Source: Marinicella meishanensis (GTDB lineage: Bacteria > Pseudomonadota > Gammaproteobacteria > Xanthomonadales > Marinicellaceae). Taken from it: a stretch of DNA of 64,000 nucleotides. Below, piece by piece: positions 2,796 to 54,787 of this stretch. The translations under genes and the position numbers were made by a program. The notes below the pieces were generated by a model that worked only from the letters and a program-made list of their open reading frames with translations, had not been told where the DNA came from and did no database searches. Every line of letters starts with the position of its first letter. The first letter of the stretch is position 1. The stretch lies in NCBI RefSeq assembly GCF_019931145.1, contig NZ_JAIOUV010000001.1, positions 310,001-374,000 of the forward strand. Direction: 5' to 3'.

Positions 2796-3650
2796 ATGAC
2801 AACTGAAACCATCAAAACCTTACCCGTACCTGCGATTACTGGCTCCCTGGAGTCGTACATCAGCAGTGTCAACCAAATCCCGGTGTTGTCAGTCGAAGAA
2901 GAACGTTCACTGGCTGATAAAGTGCGGGATCACAATGACCTGGATGCCGCCCACGCCCTGGTGATGTCACACCTGCGTTTCGTGGTCTATGTGGCCAAAG
3001 GCTACTCCGGCTATGGTTTGCCTCTGGGTGACCTGATCCAAGAAGGCAACATCGGTCTGATGAAAGCCATCAAACGCTTTGATTCCACGCACAAAGTGCG
3101 CTTGGTGTCATTCGCCGTGCATTGGATCCGGGCCGAAATTCACGAATACATTTTGAAAAACTGGCGCATATTGAAAGTGGCCACCACCAAAGCGCACCGC
3201 AAATTGTTTTTCAATCTGAGAAAGAACAAAAAACGACTGGGTTGGTTCTCGCAAGAAGAAGTCAACCGGGTCGCCAAAGACCTCGATGTCAGCCCCGAAG
3301 TGGTGGTCGAAATGGAATCGCGCCTGCACGGTCAGGACGTGTCCTTCGACTTGCCCATGGATGACGACGAGGACAACAACTATTCACCACAAGCTTGGTT
3401 AACCAACAACAGCCCCACGCCCGAATCGGAGCTGATCAAGGAAACCGAAGCGGATCGCAACCACCACGCTTTGTTCAAAGGTTTGGACAAGTTGGATGAG
3501 CGTTCACATGACATCATCCAAAGCCGTTGGTTGGTTGACAAGAAAGCCACCTTACAAGAGTTGGCTGCCAAGTACGAAGTCTCAGCCGAACGCATCCGTC
3601 AACTGGAAGCGGTGGCGTTGAAGAAACTGAAAACCCAAATGGTGGCTTGA
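2796..3650 (+). CDS. rpoH: RNA polymerase heat-shock sigma factor RpoH (sigma-32)
   Basis: Alternative sigma factor directing RNA polymerase to heat-shock promoters. The 284 residues show region 2 ([32 protein letters not shown], read as consecutive motifs), the RpoH box with [15 protein letters not shown] at about residues 130-145, and region 4 with a helix-turn-helix near the C terminus ([15 protein letters not shown]). The length is typical of the family. The start has a GGAG site 9 bases upstream. A consensus sigma-70 promoter lies upstream and an intrinsic terminator follows, so it is a single-gene unit. The groESL operon at 9-11 kb carries a matching sigma-32-like promoter. Confidence 0.97.
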
Positions 3651-3672
3651 TCAAAACCATCAAAGCCGAAGA

Positions 3673-3697
3673 AGGCCGCATCAGCGGCCTTTTTTTT
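3673..3697 (+). terminator. Rho-independent terminator of rpoH
   Basis: Seven-base-pair stem AGGCCGC / GCGGCCT with an ATCA loop, followed by a run of eight T, beginning 23 bases after the rpoH stop. Confidence 0.9.
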
Positions 3698-3701
3698 GGC
3701 C

Positions 3702-4772
3702 TCAAAACAGGCTTTGTTGTTGGGGCTGGTCGGCTTGCCGGTATTGGATGCCCAATCCCAACAAACGCACCGGACACTGTTGGCGTTGCCAGGCAGTTTT
3801 GAGCAACTGCCTGAACACGTCAAGATCCAGCTGCGGATGGATTTGTTGGGCGGTGGTGGTTTGAAAATCAGCAAACTTCACTTTGACATACAAGGCTTTG
3901 ATGGCAATGTTTTGTTTGGCCTGGGCCCGATGGTGGCGCTCACCCAGCAGCTCATACAAACGGTCCACTTCAGCCAAACAAGCCGGCAAATGCGGCAGGT
4001 CTTTGAGAAAAGTGTCTTCTACACTGACCGATTTACGAACGCTGTGGGTTTGCACCGGGCGGTGATCAATGCCCCGGCACAGTTGGTACAAGGTGGTGCC
4101 AAACACGCCAAATCGATCGGTCAACTCAGTCTGCGACAGTCGTTGTAAATCGGCGCAGGTGTGCAAACCCATGGCATGCATTTTTTTCGCCGTGACCCGA
4201 CCCACACCATAGATTTTTTTGACCGGCAAAGCCTGGACAAAGCCATCGATTTGTTCCGGGGTGATGACCCATTGGCCGTTGGGCTTGTTCCAGTCACTGG
4301 CAATTTTGGCCAAAAATTTATTGGGGGCAATGCCCGCCGATGCGGTCAACCGGTGGGCTTGCCAAATGTCTTGTCTGATTTGTTGCGCCATCAAAGTGGC
4401 ACTGCCGGCACAATGTGGTGCGTCGGTGACATCCAAAAAAGCCTCATCCAAGGACAAGGGCTGAATGATCTCGGTGTATTTTTTGAATATGTCTTTGATG
4501 CCTTTGGATTCCGCTTGATAGACGGCCATGCGCACCGGTTGGATGATCAACTGTGGGCACTTTTTCACCGCTTGCGCCATTGGCATGGCCGAGTGAATGC
4601 CAAAGGCCCGGGCTTCATAGGAACAGGTGGCCACCACCCCCCGTTTGTCGGGTTGGCCACCCACTGCAATCGGTTGGCCCCGCAGGTGTGGATAATCCCG
4701 GGCTTCAATCGCCGCATAGAAACAGTCCATGTCCACATGAATGATTTTGCGGTGGGCGGTTGAATCAGGCAT
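3702..4772 (-). CDS. dinB: DNA polymerase IV (Y-family translesion polymerase)
   Basis: Error-prone polymerase that bypasses DNA lesions. The 356 residues carry the palm motifs HVDMDCFYAAIE (metal-binding Asp near residue 14) and SLDEAFLDVT (catalytic Asp-Glu near residue 105). A helix-hairpin-helix (YGVGRVTAKKMHAMGL) follows, then the little-finger domain. The last residues QQQSLF look like a beta-clamp binding motif. It is the last gene of a minus-strand run with pfp and the nucleotide-sugar dehydrogenase, 53 bases from the latter. I saw no LexA box in the short gap. Confidence 0.95.
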   Translation of the reverse strand: MPDSTAHRKIIHVDMDCFYAAIEARDYPHLRGQPIAVGGQPDKRGVVATCSYEARAFGIHSAMPMAQAVKKCPQLIIQPVRMAVYQAESKGIKDIFKKYTEIIQPLSLDEAFLDVTDAPHCAGSATLMAQQIRQDIWQAHRLTASAGIAPNKFLAKIASDWNKPNGQWVITPEQIDGFVQALPVKKIYGVGRVTAKKMHAMGLHTCADLQRLSQTELTDRFGVFGTTLYQLCRGIDHRPVQTHSVRKSVSVEDTFLKDLPHLPACLAEVDRLYELLGERHHRAQAKQNIAIKALYVKVKFADFQTTTAQQIHPQLDLDVFRQLLKTAWQRQQCPVRLLGLGIQYRQADQPQQQSLF

Positions 4773-46924: not shown

Positions 46925-48658
46925 TCACTGCACGGTGATGGTTTGTTCAGCCAACACCAAACGTTTGCGGCCTTGCAACACATACCTGACTTTGTATTGA
47001 CCTGCTTGCTCAGGCATCGTCAACTGGCCTTGTCCGGGGTTTTGTTCGGTGTAAAAGTAGGTGATCTCACCATACAGGGTGTGGCGATCGGCCGGCATCA
47101 AGTCAACATAATCGCCCTGGCGGTTGGGGCCAGTCCATTGCACCTGAATGGTGCTGCCAGGCGCCGCCGTGCCGGGCAGCGCCAAAATGGCGGGCACCGC
47201 AGTGACGGTGATCGGCTCACTGGCCAACACCTGGCGGTCTTTTGATCCTTGCATCACAAAGCGAATTTGGTACTCACCGGGTTCCACAGGCATCAATAAT
47301 TCACCACTTTCCGGGTTGTGTTCTAAGTAAAAATAACTGATTTCACCGTAGGTGTGGGTGTACCCTTGTTTCACCACATCGATGTAGCCGCCTGCATTGT
47401 TTGGTCCGCTCCAATTGACCGTTATTTTGGCCGCCACTTCAGCCTGTGGTTGAAATGCCAAAGTCACCGCTGAGGCCTCAACTTCAACGGGAATGCGGTG
47501 CAGGATTTGGCGACCATCCGGCGCTTCCATTACATAGCGGACATCATATTTACCCGGTGCCGCGGGGGCATTGATGGTCCCAGTTGGACCCACATTGGTA
47601 TAGAAGTAGCCCAATTCACCATAGGTTCGCTGATCACCTCGTTTCACCAAATCAACATAGTCACCATTGCGGTTGGGGCCTTGCCAAGTGACCTCAAAGG
47701 CGCTGGCCGCAGCCACTTTCGCCGGTGCCAATAACGACACATCACTGTCAACCACTTGCATTGGGGCCCGGGCCAAAATGTGTTTTTGCTTGGGGCCCTG
47801 CCAAATGTAGCGCAGCTCGTATTCTCCCACTTGCCCCGGGGCCCTCAGTTGCGCCGGACTGCCGGTGTTGGCCCATTGATAAGCCAACTCACCATAGACC
47901 CGATCATCACCCACCGGCACCACATCAATGTAGTCCTGCTCTCCGGCAGGTCCCGTCCATTTGACGGCAAAACCGGCACCAATGACCACCGGCTCGCTGG
48001 GCGACAGCACCTCAGCCGTGGGCAACTCAACCGTGGCCACCGGTTCTTCAGCGGCCAACACCACCTGCTGCAGTGCCTGATTCAGGCTCTGGGCATCGGC
48101 GGCAGGAAGGTAACGGCCACCGGTGATGTCGGCCATGCAAGACAGTTGTTTGCCTTGGTCGGCACTCAAACCAAAGCCCACCACATGGGCGGTGAAATCA
48201 ACACCCAGTTGTTCCAATTCAGCCGCCACGGCACAAGGATCGCGGTCACAAGTTTCCACCCCATCGGTGATCAGCACCACCGTGGCTTGGTTCTCGGTGT
48301 ATTTCAAAGAATCTGCCGCCATCACCACCGCTTGGCTCAGCGGGGTTTTGCCTTTGGGTTGCAGTTGCTGAACTTGGGCGGCAATGGCCTGGGCGGTGCC
48401 CGCGGCCGGCTCGACCAAGGTTTCGATGTCCGCACAATCGCCTTTGCGTCGGTGTCCATAAGCCATCAAGCCCACCGTTTGCTCGGCGGCAAAGCCTTGG
48501 CTGATGGTGCTGACCGCATCGCGGGCGATTTCGATTTTGGTGACGCCGTCAATTTGTCCCCACATGGACCCTGAGGCGTCAAACACCAATATGGTGTCGG
48601 GGTTGGCCCAAACGGCCGGCGTGGCCATTGCCAGGCAACAGAAGGTGATTTTTTTCAT
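46925..48658 (-). CDS. Exported von Willebrand factor A protein with four tandem beta-domains
   Basis: Protein of 577 residues. After a signal peptide (about 1-19) comes a VWA domain (about 20-200) with MIDAS motif DASGSMWG and ITDGVETCDRDPC. Four repeats of about 90 residues follow, each with a pattern F-V-W-GPN--GDYVDLV then YGE--YFYT then G-Y--RYVMQG-R--LA. It is likely periplasmic or surface-bound and may bind a metal-dependent partner. The start at 48658 fits the signal peptide. Confidence 0.85.
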   Translation of the reverse strand: MKKITFCCLAMATPAVWANPDTILVFDASGSMWGQIDGVTKIEIARDAVSTISQGFAAEQTVGLMAYGHRRKGDCADIETLVEPAAGTAQAIAAQVQQLQPKGKTPLSQAVVMAADSLKYTENQATVVLITDGVETCDRDPCAVAAELEQLGVDFTAHVVGFGLSADQGKQLSCMADITGGRYLPAADAQSLNQALQQVVLAAEEPVATVELPTAEVLSPSEPVVIGAGFAVKWTGPAGEQDYIDVVPVGDDRVYGELAYQWANTGSPAQLRAPGQVGEYELRYIWQGPKQKHILARAPMQVVDSDVSLLAPAKVAAASAFEVTWQGPNRNGDYVDLVKRGDQRTYGELGYFYTNVGPTGTINAPAAPGKYDVRYVMEAPDGRQILHRIPVEVEASAVTLAFQPQAEVAAKITVNWSGPNNAGGYIDVVKQGYTHTYGEISYFYLEHNPESGELLMPVEPGEYQIRFVMQGSKDRQVLASEPITVTAVPAILALPGTAAPGSTIQVQWTGPNRQGDYVDLMPADRHTLYGEITYFYTEQNPGQGQLTMPEQAGQYKVRYVLQGRKRLVLAEQTITVQ

Positions 48659-48894
48659 GGCATTGATCTCTGAATTGAAAGGCCACCATTGTGTCGCAAC
48701 CGCCACCGATTCTCAACCGCCGGTGCGGCAAATGTGCGACAGGGCGCACTCCCAAACAGCGCCTGGTTCAAGTGGGGTTCAGTTTGCGCAGAACGTCTGC
48801 CAACAAGCCTGCTCAAACATCTTTTTGACTATTGTCAAACTCCTCAATTAACGGTTTTTTTACAATGCAGTTTTCACAACCAATGAGACCTATC

Positions 48895-49657: not shown

Positions 49658-49686
49658 TTGACCGAGCGGTCATAAATCAATACAAT
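49658..49686 (+). promoter_or_regulatory. tetR promoter overlapping operator O2
   Basis: TTGACC (49658-49663), 17 bases, TACAAT (49681-49686). The -35 box is the left arm of O2. The start site would be near 49693, right at the ATG 49694, implying a leaderless or near-leaderless mRNA. Confidence 0.6.
49659..49672. promoter_or_regulatory. TetR-type operator O2
   Basis: TGACCGAGCGGTCA, the same GACC-N4-GGTC form as O1 and O3. It covers the putative tetR -35 box. Confidence 0.8.
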
Positions 49687-49693
49687 GCCCATC

Positions 49694-50296
49694 ATGACAG
49701 TAGGCAGACCGCGCAAAATTGATCCAGACATCATCCTTGAGAACGCCATGCAGGTGTTCTGGGAAAAAGGCTATGAAGGCAGCAGCATGGCTGACATCAT
49801 GCGCGCCACTGGTATGCACAAAGGCAGTCTGTATCAAACCTTTGGCGACAAAAAATCTTTGTTCATGGCCGCTTTGGAGCGGTATTTGGACGGCATGTTT
49901 GTCGAACAACAACAAATCATCAAAACCCATGACGACCCGACCGCTGCCATCCGAGCGGTGTTGTTTCACTTGTTGGAATACGCCCACATCAACGACCAGG
50001 GCGGGCAACAACAACGCGGTTGTATGGCGGTGAATTCCTTGGTAGACAGCGCCCCATACGACGATGACATCTGTCAGTTGTTGGAACAAAAGAAACAACG
50101 CATGATTGGTTCCATGGTGCAAGTGATTGAACAAATCCAAGCTGCCAACCCGCAACAGCTGACCCGTCCGGTGGAGGTGGTCACTGCCCTGATTGGGGTG
50201 GCCATGGAAGGTTTGAGCATCGAGATGAAAAACAACATGGATCCGGATATGGCCAAAGCCGTGCTGGATCAACAGTTACAATTACTGGGCATCTGA
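49694..50296 (+). CDS. TetR-family transcriptional repressor
   Basis: Regulator of 200 residues. N-terminal helix-turn-helix: GRPRKIDPDIILENAMQVF, then ADIMRATGMHKGSLYQTFGDKKSLF at about 30-55. The C-terminal ligand-binding half includes RGCMAVNS. It likely represses itself and the transporter gene downstream through three matching palindromes (49627, 49659, 50315). I prefer ATG 49694 over ATG 49685, since the latter overlaps the -10 box. Confidence 0.9.
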   Translation: MTVGRPRKIDPDIILENAMQVFWEKGYEGSSMADIMRATGMHKGSLYQTFGDKKSLFMAALERYLDGMFVEQQQIIKTHDDPTAAIRAVLFHLLEYAHINDQGGQQQRGCMAVNSLVDSAPYDDDICQLLEQKKQRMIGSMVQVIEQIQAANPQQLTRPVEVVTALIGVAMEGLSIEMKNNMDPDMAKAVLDQQLQLLGI

Positions 50297-50356: not shown

Positions 50357-53300
50357 ATGAGCCGTTATTTCCAAGCCATTGATCGATTTGCCAGCCAACT
50401 GGCCCAATTCACCACCAGCCACCGCTTGTGGGTCCTCATGATCAGCCTGATGCTGGTGATGTTGGCCGGTTCAGGCGGCCGCTTTTTGGATTTCTCCACC
50501 GATTACCGCGACTTCTTTTCGGAGTCCAACCCTGAATTGCAAGCCTTTGATGACTTGCAAAACACCTACAGCAAAAACGACAACATCCTGTTTGTGTTGA
50601 AACCCAAGTCCCAGCAGGTGTTCAGCAACGACACTTTGGCGGCGGTGGAATGGTTGACCGAAGCTTCCTGGCAGATCCCCTACACCCAGCGGGTCGATTC
50701 ATTGTCCAACTTCCAACACACCCGCGGGGTGGATGACGATTTGATCGTGGAAGACTTGGTGACCGACGCCCGCAGTCTGAGCGCTGAACAACTGGACGCC
50801 ATCGAACAGGTGGCGCTGCACGAACCCCTGATCCATCGGCAACTGGTCAACGACAACCAACAACTCACGGCGGTGGTGGTGACCTTGAACTTCCCCCAAC
50901 AAAATGTCCAAGAGGTGCCCGAAGCGGTGGCCGAAGCGCGGAGCTTGAAAGCCCAACTGCTGGAACAGCATCCCGAAATGGACGTGTACATCAGTGGTGT
51001 GGCCATGTTGAACAACGCCTTTGCCGAAGCCGGATTTGGTGACATGGGCAGCTTGGTGCCGCTGATGTTTTTGGTGATCATGCTGATGACCTGGGTCATC
51101 ATGCGCTCATTCACCGCCACCCTGGCCACCTTGGTGGTGGTGATGCTGTCGTCCATGTTTGCCATGGGACTGGCCGGCTATTTTGGCATCAAACTGACCC
51201 CGATCGCCGGTTCTGCGCCGACCATCATCTTGACTTTGGCGATTGCCGACTCTTTGCACATCTTGATCACTTTGAAGAATTTGATGCGCGACGGCATGGA
51301 AAAATCACGAGCCATCATCGAAGCCGTGCGGGTCAATTTCTTGCCCGTTACCATCACCTCACTGACCACCATCATCGGCTTTTTGGCCTTGAATTTTTCA
51401 GATTCACCGCCGTTTTGGCATTTGGGCAACATCACCGCGATGGGCATTTTCGCAGCGTGGATCTTGTCCTTGACTTTGTTGCCGGTGTTGATCAGCTGGC
51501 TGCCTTTTCGGGTCAAACCACGGGCGGCTGACGACTTGACCCTGATGGATCGTTTGGGCCAGTTTGTGGTGCGTTACCCCAAACAATTGATCGCCGTGCT
51601 GGGCTTATCGACCCTGATCCTGATCAGCTTCATTCCACGCATTGAATTGAATGACCAATGGTCCGAATACTTTGATGATTCGATCCAATTCAGACAAGAC
51701 ACCGACGAAGTGGTCAAACATTTTGGCATTTATCCAGTGGAGTTTTCACTGCCAGCCAAAGGCCCCAATCAAATTGCCGATCCCGAATACCTGGCGCACT
51801 TGGAACGTTTCAGTGAATACCTCAAGCAACAAGAGCATGTGACCCATGTGTACGCCTTTTCCGACATCATCAAGCGCTTGAACAAGAACTTACACGCCGA
51901 TGACCCGGACCATTATGCCATCCCTGACAACCATGAATTGGCCGCTCAATACCTGTTGTTGTATGAGATGTCTTTGCCGTTCGGTCTGGATTTGAACGAC
52001 CGCGTGAACATCGACAAATCAGCCACGCGGGTCACCGCCACATTGGCCAACACCTCCACCGCTCAGACCAAAATCATGCTGGAAAACGCCCAACAGTGGA
52101 TCCAAACCAACTTGCCTGACTACATGCACGCGACCTTACCCACCAGTGCCCAAGTGATGTTCACCTACATCGCCGAACGCAACGTCTTCAACATGGTTGG
52201 CGGCACCGTCGGCGCCATCGTGCTGATCTCGCTGATCTTGATGGTGTCATTGATGAGTTGGCGCCTGGGCTTGTTGAGTCTGATCCCCAATGGCTTGCCC
52301 ATCTTGGCCACCTTTGGCACCTGGGCTCTGTTGGTGGGCGAAGTGGGCTTTTCGGTGGCCACCGTGGCTTCCATTTCACTGGGCATCATTGTTGATGACA
52401 CGGTGCATTTTCTGTCCAAGTATGTGCGGGCGCGGAATGAAAAAGGCCTGGATGCCGCCGCCTCAGTCCAATATGCCTATCGCAATGTGGGTCTGGCCAT
52501 TTTGGTCAACACCGCGATCCTCACCGTGGGCTTTTTGGTGCTGACCACATCGTCATTCAAAATCAATTTCGACATGGGCATGCTGACCGCCATCGCCATT
52601 GTCTTTGCTTTGTTGCTGGATTTCTTGCTGTTACCGGCTTTGCTGGTCTTTTTTGATCGCAAACCGGCCACCCAACCATCTGTTAACCCCTCTGGAGGAA
52701 CCCCCATGAAACCCGTAAAAACCGCTGCCGCCATGGCCGCCGTGCTGCTGTTCAGCAGCTTCGGCTCGGTCGCCGCGCAAGACCTCAACCTGGAAAGTGC
52801 CGATCCGGTGCTCAAAGGCCACGCCATTTCGGCCCGTTCGGACCGCTCAGATCGCGGCTTTGCCGACAGTGAAGTGGACGTCACCATGGTGTTGAAGAAC
52901 GCCGCCGGGCAGGAAACCGCCCGCTCCATGACCTTCACCACCTTGGAAGTCGCTGATGAAGACCTTGGCGACAAAAGCCTGGTGCTGTTCAACACCCCCA
53001 AAGACGTCGAGGGCACGGCATTGTTGTCCCACGCCAAGATGGTCAAACCCGATGACCAATGGTTGTTCTTGCCGGCCTTGAAACGGGTCAAACGCATTTC
53101 GTCGAAAAACAAATCAGGCCCTTTTGTGGGATCGGAGTTTGCCTTTGAAGACTTCACCGCCACCGAGTTGAACAAATATGATTACCTGTGGTTGCGCACC
53201 GAAGCCTGTGGCGATTTGGTCTGTGACGTGGTGCAACGCACACCCCGCTATGAGCATTCGGGCTACACCAAACAAATCGCCTGGATCGACCAAACCGATC

Positions 53301-53521
53301 ACCAACTGCGCCAAGTCGAATTTTATGACCGCCGCGACAGCCTGTTGAAAACCCTCACGCTCAGCGATTACCGCAGTTACGATGGCATTTGGCGCAGCCA
53401 CCGCCTGTCGATGTTGAACCACACCAATGGCAAAAGCACCGATTTGCACTATGGTGACTACACCTTCAAGGTCGGCTTGGGTGACCATGATTTTGTCAAA
53501 GGCAAACTGACCGAACTTTAA
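50357..53521 (+). CDS. RND/MMPL transporter fused in frame to a LolA-like outer-membrane lipoprotein-sorting protein
   Basis: Predicted product of 1054 residues. Residues 1-783 form an RND/MMPL exporter: a first helix at about 22-40, a periplasmic loop, a 5-helix bundle (about 225-390), a second loop, and a last helix bundle (about 615-760) with the SLGIIVDDTVHFLSKY motif. From Met 784 (base 52706) the sequence is a complete second protein: signal peptide KPVKTAAAMAAVLLFSSFG... and a LolA/LppX-type fold (KRVKRISSKNKSGPFVGSEFAFEDF). GGAGG lies just before that Met. No stop lies between the two. It may be translated as one chain and also from the inner start. Confidence 0.85.
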   Translation: MSRYFQAIDRFASQLAQFTTSHRLWVLMISLMLVMLAGSGGRFLDFSTDYRDFFSESNPELQAFDDLQNTYSKNDNILFVLKPKSQQVFSNDTLAAVEWLTEASWQIPYTQRVDSLSNFQHTRGVDDDLIVEDLVTDARSLSAEQLDAIEQVALHEPLIHRQLVNDNQQLTAVVVTLNFPQQNVQEVPEAVAEARSLKAQLLEQHPEMDVYISGVAMLNNAFAEAGFGDMGSLVPLMFLVIMLMTWVIMRSFTATLATLVVVMLSSMFAMGLAGYFGIKLTPIAGSAPTIILTLAIADSLHILITLKNLMRDGMEKSRAIIEAVRVNFLPVTITSLTTIIGFLALNFSDSPPFWHLGNITAMGIFAAWILSLTLLPVLISWLPFRVKPRAADDLTLMDRLGQFVVRYPKQLIAVLGLSTLILISFIPRIELNDQWSEYFDDSIQFRQDTDEVVKHFGIYPVEFSLPAKGPNQIADPEYLAHLERFSEYLKQQEHVTHVYAFSDIIKRLNKNLHADDPDHYAIPDNHELAAQYLLLYEMSLPFGLDLNDRVNIDKSATRVTATLANTSTAQTKIMLENAQQWIQTNLPDYMHATLPTSAQVMFTYIAERNVFNMVGGTVGAIVLISLILMVSLMSWRLGLLSLIPNGLPILATFGTWALLVGEVGFSVATVASISLGIIVDDTVHFLSKYVRARNEKGLDAAASVQYAYRNVGLAILVNTAILTVGFLVLTTSSFKINFDMGMLTAIAIVFALLLDFLLLPALLVFFDRKPATQPSVNPSGGTPMKPVKTAAAMAAVLLFSSFGSVAAQDLNLESADPVLKGHAISARSDRSDRGFADSEVDVTMVLKNAAGQETARSMTFTTLEVADEDLGDKSLVLFNTPKDVEGTALLSHAKMVKPDDQWLFLPALKRVKRISSKNKSGPFVGSEFAFEDFTATELNKYDYLWLRTEACGDLVCDVVQRTPRYEHSGYTKQIAWIDQTDHQLRQVEFYDRRDSLLKTLTLSDYRSYDGIWRSHRLSMLNHTNGKSTDLHYGDYTFKVGLGDHDFVKGKLTEL

Positions 53522-53536
53522 TTCATCCTTTTTGTA

Positions 53537-54787
53537 ATGAAAACCATGTCACTCCGATCCAATACCCACAGGGAATCACTCTTGGGATTTTATCCCTCTC
53601 CAAGAGTGGGCTTGATGTTGATCTTACTCACGCTCAGCTGTGTCCTCCCTGCACAGTCCGAGGAAGTTGATTTCTCGATTGATATTGGCCTGGAAACCAG
53701 GGGGTTCTTCGCGGACCCCTTGCTTTCTATCCAGGACCACGAATTCAATGCCTCTGTGTCGGTGCTGCCTGCATGGCAATGGCGCTCGGCAGACCGCAAA
53801 CACCGCTTCAATGCCGCGATTTTCATGCGCTGGGACCAACAAGATGATGAACGCAGCCACCTGGATGTGCGGGAGTTGTATTGGTCCTACAGTGATCGGG
53901 CATGGACCACCACGGTGGGTATCAACAAAGTGTTCTGGGGTGTCACCGAGTCGGTGCACCTGGTCGACGTGATCAACCAAACCGATTTGGTTGAGGACTT
54001 GGATCAAGAAGACAAACTCGGCCAACCCATGCTGCAAATCAGTCGCCAACAAAACTGGGGGCGGTTGGATTTGTTCGTCTTACCGCATTTTCGTGAACGG
54101 ACTTTCCCTGGTGCCAAGGGCCGTTTTGGCTTCGGGGTGCCAATCAGCGATGAGGCACTTTACGAATCTTCGGCCGAACAATCCCACACCGATGTGGCCT
54201 TGCGGTATTCGCACTATTTTGGTGACTTGGATGTCGGCTTGTATGGCTTTGTCGGCACCAACCGCGAACCCTTGTTGCTGCCCAGCGATGACGGCAGTCA
54301 ATGGCAGCCTTATTACCAACAAATGAATCAGTTGGGGGTGGATTTACAATACACCACCGACGCCTGGCTGTGGAAACTGGAAGCCATCTTTCGCGACACC
54401 GAAACCGATCAATTTTGGGCCGCGGTGGGCGGTTTTGAATACACCTTCTACCAGATCAACGACGGCGCAGCCGACTTGGGGGTGCTGCTCGAATACCAAT
54501 TCGATGACCGGGATCTGACCAGCGCCCCGACGCTGGCCGACAATGACTTATTTTTGGCCGCCCGTTGGGCCTTGAATGATGCCAAGGACAGCAGCGTGTT
54601 GGGCGGCTTCAGTCACGACCTCGACACCGGTTCCACCTTCATCAACATCGAAGCCGAAACCCGCCTGACCGATCACCTAACGGCTGACTTGCGGGTGCGG
54701 CTGTTCACCAACACCGACCCTGCAGACCCGGCCTTTGTGTTCAGTCGCAATGATTATGTGCAGCTGGGCCTGAATTGGTTTTTTTGA
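53537..54787 (+). CDS. Outer-membrane beta-barrel protein of the transporter locus
   Basis: Protein of 416 residues with a signal peptide (hydrophobic core LMLILLTLSCVLPAQS at about 26-41, with an unusually long N-region; a Met at 53615 could be the true start). It has many amphipathic strands with aromatic ends and a terminal Phe (LGLNWFF). It resembles DUF1302-like barrels that accompany RND and DUF1329/LolA-type proteins in other gammaproteobacteria. It follows the fusion gene by 15 bases, so it is likely in the same operon and forms the outer-membrane partner. Confidence 0.8.
   Translation: MKTMSLRSNTHRESLLGFYPSPRVGLMLILLTLSCVLPAQSEEVDFSIDIGLETRGFFADPLLSIQDHEFNASVSVLPAWQWRSADRKHRFNAAIFMRWDQQDDERSHLDVRELYWSYSDRAWTTTVGINKVFWGVTESVHLVDVINQTDLVEDLDQEDKLGQPMLQISRQQNWGRLDLFVLPHFRERTFPGAKGRFGFGVPISDEALYESSAEQSHTDVALRYSHYFGDLDVGLYGFVGTNREPLLLPSDDGSQWQPYYQQMNQLGVDLQYTTDAWLWKLEAIFRDTETDQFWAAVGGFEYTFYQINDGAADLGVLLEYQFDDRDLTSAPTLADNDLFLAARWALNDAKDSSVLGGFSHDLDTGSTFINIEAETRLTDHLTADLRVRLFTNTDPADPAFVFSRNDYVQLGLNWFF

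Follow-up and report, generated by a model that had tools for sequence, protein, structure and literature searches.

Two described systems come close to the locus considered here. In Thalassolituus oleivorans MIL-1, the relevant parts of the published report describe a single protein, TOL_3187, with both an MMPL and a LolA-like domain; TOL_3187 and TOL_3188 were found by proteomics and were up 42-fold on the n-C28 alkane (PMC6304351). In Castellaniella defragrans, the AmeABCD system is linked to apolar monoterpenes in the corresponding passages of its report (PMC6394551). The present analysis concerns a 64,000-nucleotide stretch of the Marinicella meishanensis genome (contig NZ_JAIOUV010000001.1, positions 310,001 to 374,000; hereafter the window, in whose coordinates all features are given), where an exporter of the MMPL type and a LolA-like carrier share one open reading frame (ORF) within a three-part cassette. 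This ORF is a real, inherited fusion, and the start signals of the carrier gene are preserved inside it.

The fused ORF (50357-53521, forward strand, as are all features below unless stated) encodes 1054 amino acids and reads without interruption from the ATG at 50357 to the TAA at 53519-53521. The MMPL profile (PF03176) matches two stretches of it (E 5.5e-38; 131.2 bits against a cut-off of 20.5) and the LolA_like profile (PF17131) matches residues 872-1052 (E 1.3e-55; 188.3 bits against a gathering score of 30). The exporter part, approximately residues 1-767 (50357-52657), is delimited by PF03176 and by model folds. It is followed by a linker devoid of stop codons (52658-52705), near whose end a GGAGG sequence (52694-52698) lies 7 bases upstream from the ATG of Met784 (52706-52708) and is predicted to pair with the 16S rRNA tail with an energy of -9.3 kcal/mol. 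Met784 opens a retained signal peptide with a candidate signal peptidase I site (52706-52777), recognized by its motif and by comparison of junctions, and beyond it lies the carrier domain (52778-53518). Direct reading of the sequence thus agrees with what an initial annotation had noticed, namely the uninterrupted frame through Met784, the GGAGG ahead of it, and the signal peptide and LolA-like domain that follow.

The exporter qualifies as an MMPL-type RND transporter by its MMPL domains, its RND fold and its acidic residues in transmembrane helices 4 and 10 (TM4 and TM10). These residues, D298, D680 and D681, which we take to be the proton-relay acids, are conserved in 39 of 48, 47 of 47 and 45 of 47 rows having a residue at the respective position. 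An AlphaFold2 model of the fused protein (built from 85 of 128 alignment rows) has a mean predicted local distance difference test score (pLDDT) of 90.7 over the whole chain; residues 777-812 fall below 50 and, within this stretch, only residues 790-802 (13 residues) form a helix. The exporter model matches MmpL4/5, MmpL3, HpnN and NPC1-type folds. The carrier belongs to the LolA_like family, both by its profile score and by its LolA-like fold, with a template modelling (TM) score of 0.94, normalized by the target, and 46% identity to PDB entry 3bk5. Against the NCBIfam models, the exporter misses the cut-off of HAE3 (TIGR00921, 157.7 versus 351.9 bits) and would be HAE3-like at most. Assignments as a hopanoid transporter of the HpnN type (TIGR03480, 95.1 versus 751.85; NF052374, 36 versus 1100) or as the sterol transporter BstA (NF045600, 31 versus 1400) were rejected.

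The open junction was read in seven distinct genomes including that of the window (G000), representing four families in all. The fused homologues are 78% (G009 and G015), 68% (G025 and G160), 61% (G036) and 60% (G483) identical to the window protein; G483 belongs to another order, G160 is the same record as locus L039, and the G015 locus is cut on its 5' side by a contig end. Several of the seven are metagenome bins, and the window genome consists of 15 contigs and is 98% complete. From the exporter's LPALL motif to the methionine, the linkers measure 15 to 20 codons and vary in sequence as well as in length. Homologous loci were compared for the presence of a stop between the two parts, using 71 exporter rows that belong to the close family and come from loci among the matches listed (up to 30 per search), identical copies being counted once. 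Seven rows are fused, 57 are split, often with overlapping ends, and seven have no LolA ORF in the locus. Among the latter, L040 appears to be split, its carrier start overlapping out of frame, and L013 stops at a contig edge; the others are L070, L072, L075, L084 and L111. Hence the expectation that related loci carry two genes holds for 57 of the 71 rows but fails for the closest relatives, which are fused. The distribution is patchy even within the genus: among 17 other genomes, only G009 and G015 gave matches at E <=1e-40. Searches around G483, G036, G129 and G160 (2, 4, 43 and 39 genomes, respectively) yielded no further close-clade fusion. Two candidates suggested by the length of their open frames (G802 and G1036) were rejected when direct reading revealed a stop between the parts. 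Likewise, G148 (L045/L121), 64-66% identical, is not fused: its exporter ends at a stop, and about 320 bases intervene before the carrier.

In a 72-row tree, into which the contig-edge row L043 was placed by hand, all seven fused rows fall inside one group of ten supported by a Shimodaira-Hasegawa-like approximate likelihood ratio test (SH-aLRT) value of 96. The other members are G148, which is split, and two rows truncated at contig ends. A more careful 21-row tree recovers the same group (bootstrap 84, SH-aLRT 97) and needs just two state changes; constraining the fused and contig-edge rows to a single clade was not rejected in this tree (approximately unbiased test, p-AU 0.223). The simplest reading of these trees, not a proven one, would be one fusion event plus one split row. 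Seven of the eight group members with a readable junction are open, their proteins being 60-78% identical to that of the window; this leans towards a useful long product, albeit from few and related rows. Two further observations, the lack of stops in 121 linker codons (versus 13 in the two other frames) and the whole-codon lengths of the linkers, were dropped as evidence of selection because the rows had been chosen for being open, which makes both true by definition.

In all seven fused genomes, the first methionine after the LPALL motif is the start of the signal peptide. The sequences preceding it are predicted to pair with the 16S tail at -9.3 (G000), -7.1 (G009, G015, G036 and G483), -6.4 (G025) and -3.9 kcal/mol (G160). 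None of the 31 other internal methionines of the window gene equals the junction methionine. Values of -6.4 kcal/mol or stronger are found at six of the seven junction methionines as opposed to 9 of 193 control methionines of the same genes; no p-value is attached to these counts because the seven sequences are related. A natural fusion with preserved start signals, one of the two possibilities put forward in the initial annotation, is thus what the seven genomes bear out, and the fused gene likely gives rise to a long and a short product.

In the window protein, motif inspection places candidate cleavage sites at SVA-A or VAA-Q, that is, after residue 806 or 807. A short hydrophobic core followed by a signal peptidase I-like site is present at the junction in this family and also in a second, distant family of fused proteins. 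Over the 16 fused proteins of both families, a loose cleavage motif follows the core in 15, versus 38 of the 94 control flanks taken from six other in-to-out helices, and a strict AxA in 6, versus 5 of the 94. The single miss (the first G036 copy) has its motif just outside the counted stretch. An automatic core finder misplaced 4 of the 16 cores (G015, the second G036 copy, G909 and L139), for which the range considered was narrowed manually.

The distant family comprises nine proteins (from G019, G030, G047, G063, G909, G128 and G732, a second copy in G036, and locus L139 of Acinetobacter baumannii). Their frames span 1043-1221 codons, those with a listed identity match the window protein at 23-27%, and the domain order, MMPL then LolA, is the same; G047 and G063 are near relatives of each other. 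By our reading, none of the nine genes has a convincing start codon with a purine-rich Shine-Dalgarno sequence in the interval from the last exporter helix to the core of the signal peptide. Start candidates that score better (second G036 copy, G047, G909, L139 and G732) precede the carrier domain by 40-58 codons and fall at about the end of the last exporter helix. By eye, the corresponding segments end in SFA-Q, ANA-Q, AYA-D, ASA-A, AQA-D, VKA-N, SHA-D and AHA-D. For this family, the simplest account of a cleavage site retained in genes that lack a convincing internal start is that the long product itself is cut. The difference between their junctions suggests that the close and distant families may have been fused independently. 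At the eight distant loci examined (all but G063), a protein of 403-437 residues starts within 44 bases of the end of the fused gene, and the C-termini of these eight proteins resemble those of outer-membrane proteins. The A. baumannii frame (L139, 2485-6132) carries an additional N-terminal Polyketide_cyc2 domain and adjoins a gene that looks, by eye, like a nonribosomal peptide synthetase. Judging from its context, we would guess that this frame is A1S_0116. The latter has been placed in lipopeptide synthesis and export in the relevant passages of two reports (PMC7997844, PMC5376624).

We read the ORF as an inherited fusion, joining two members of a three-part cassette, that most likely yields a pump and a free carrier; as a whole, this explanation is only slightly more probable than not. 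We favor a carrier released by internal initiation, by signal peptidase cleavage, or by both, over one permanently tethered. Once the long product is inserted in the inner membrane, its second signal peptide would form an N-in helix open to cleavage by signal peptidase I. Additional free carrier would come from ribosomes starting at Met784, by virtue of the kept Shine-Dalgarno sequence. The pump, the carrier and an outer-membrane barrel might then transport a highly hydrophobic, lipid-like molecule between the inner and outer membranes at the expense of the proton gradient. The fuller proposal of a conserved gene with two outputs, a cleaved pump-carrier polyprotein and additional carrier from the internal start (the distant family relying on cleavage alone), is more tentative and somewhat short of an even chance. 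If true, it would set the floor of the pump to carrier ratio at 1:1 and leave the carrier in adjustable excess.

Several points weigh against the release of the carrier as just outlined. The internal Shine-Dalgarno sequence of G160 is weak (-3.9 kcal/mol) and is equaled at 3 of 25 other methionines of the gene; equally strong methionines also number one in G015 and two each in G036 and G483. The seven fused sequences are related and their counts not independent. Recognition of the cleavage site relied on motifs and in part on visual inspection, and the loose motif is common elsewhere (11 of 15 after TM3, 10 of 16 after TM9), making it a weak test alone. In the close family, the site may have been retained solely for the sake of the carrier initiated internally, and the low pLDDT at the signal peptide in the model is no proof of cutting.

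Among the alternatives, a stable tether survives best, although we regard it as rather unlikely. Here, the second signal peptide would serve as a 13th membrane helix, holding the LolA domain beside the pump for local handover of cargo. The expected topology, with the exporter's C-terminus in the cytoplasm followed by an N-in helix, permits such an arrangement, which the initial annotation had envisaged; the frame also stays open in seven of the eight readable group members, as if the long product mattered, and a second family is fused as well. What speaks against an uncleaved anchor is the peptidase-like motif in both fused families, together with the shortness of the core, modeled as a 13-residue helix of low confidence. 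Moreover, a carrier unable to leave would presumably be ill suited to ferrying cargo to a barrel in the outer membrane.

Incidental read-through appears to us improbable. On this view, nearly all of the carrier would come from internal initiation, and the long product, created by a frame change at an overlap, would be a by-product that the cell tolerates. This alternative has in its favor the strong Shine-Dalgarno sequence, the kept methionine, the one group member that is split (G148) and the ease with which such a fusion could arise. In 29 of the 57 split pairs, taking as carrier start the candidate with the best Shine-Dalgarno sequence, this start overlaps the end of the exporter gene. At L087, L063, L064 and L067 it precedes the end of the exporter stop by 11-32 bases, and L040 reads as an overlap too; other near rows, L014, L045, L068 and L091, show no overlap. 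Given such an overlap, a minor shift of frame in the exporter's tail could bypass the old stop and join the two frames, leaving the carrier's Shine-Dalgarno sequence and ATG intact, so that fusion would be a small step. In the +1 frame of the linker, the first stop is the TGA of an ATGA at the internal start for G000, G015, G036 and G483, four of the seven fused genes. As a trace of a former 4-base overlap this pattern is only suggestive, because any second codon beginning with A yields it. Read-through as a mere by-product does not readily account for seven of eight readable rows remaining open despite linkers that differ in length and sequence, nor for a distant family fused without a convincing internal start. 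Finally, a sequencing or assembly error near 52680, to which the TAA lying out of frame at 52684-52686 had lent some substance, can be dismissed since six other genomes share the open junction and the dissimilarity of their linkers excludes a shared error.

The fused gene is the middle member of a conserved cassette, TetR - MMPL-LolA - barrel. The first gene (49685-50296) encodes a TetR-family regulator (PF00440, E 4.7e-13), a homologue of which precedes the fused gene in all five other fused loci with upstream DNA. In the locus of the closest full-length relative (L038), a second TetR-like ORF (3641-4060), 47% identical to the window TetR and perhaps a partial duplicate, lies 5' of the intact one; a 593-residue protein encoded on the reverse strand of the window (46925-48706), by eye with a von Willebrand-like N-terminus followed by repeats, has a counterpart of 63% identity in the same locus. 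The third component (53537-54787) is a predicted outer-membrane beta-barrel, identified from its model and its conserved position: no Pfam match was obtained, the model is a barrel of moderate confidence (pLDDT 73) whose best PDB matches are porins and AlgE (TM score about 0.5), and a homologue follows the fused gene in all six other genomes (G009, G036, G160, G483, G025 and G015). No Shine-Dalgarno-like site precedes its listed ATG, 15 bases past the stop of the fused gene, so that its translation may rely on coupling or start elsewhere. Elsewhere in the window genome, contig 15 (L133, 115000-125000) carries a split paralogous set, with an 840-residue exporter frame, a 259-residue LolA-like protein and a 448-residue protein in a row.

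These parts point to transport of a highly hydrophobic compound through the envelope. One chain here joins an RND-type pump from a family of lipid transporters to a LolA-like carrier, which supports the view of pump, carrier and barrel as a single trans-envelope route. Split genes, fused genes with an internal start and fused genes without one constitute a natural set in which a free carrier can be tested against a tethered one.

AmeABCD likewise brings together, in one cassette, an HAE3 RND pump, a periplasmic protein of the LolA superfamily and an outer-membrane protein; as far as the passages concerned go, AmeABCD differs in having separate genes, components of the DUF1329 and DUF1302 families and an additional periplasmic protein, AmeC (PMC6394551). 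TOL_3187 and TOL_3188 offer the same pump-carrier protein with a downstream porin, and the corresponding parts of the report do not discuss the junction, internal initiation or cleavage (PMC6304351). Its authors propose in those parts that TOL_3187 exports the porin (PMC6304351), although lipid transport seems to us the likelier role. Retention of an internal start within an MMPL-LolA fusion was not found in the portions of the open-licence literature searched, nor was an MMPL-LolA fusion in the passages of PMC8277102. Among the papers listed on bacterial polyproteins cut at an internal signal peptide, most were viral or unrelated in subject and none treated FbcH of Bradyrhizobium. Because TOL_3187 is already in print as an MMPL-LolA protein, the window fusion represents a variant of a known arrangement. 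As to its processing, the nearest parallel may be the cytochrome b/c1 polyprotein FbcH of Bradyrhizobium, which is cut at an internal signal peptide; the proteins are unrelated and cutting is established for FbcH and only predicted for the fusion described here, but the logic would be the same.
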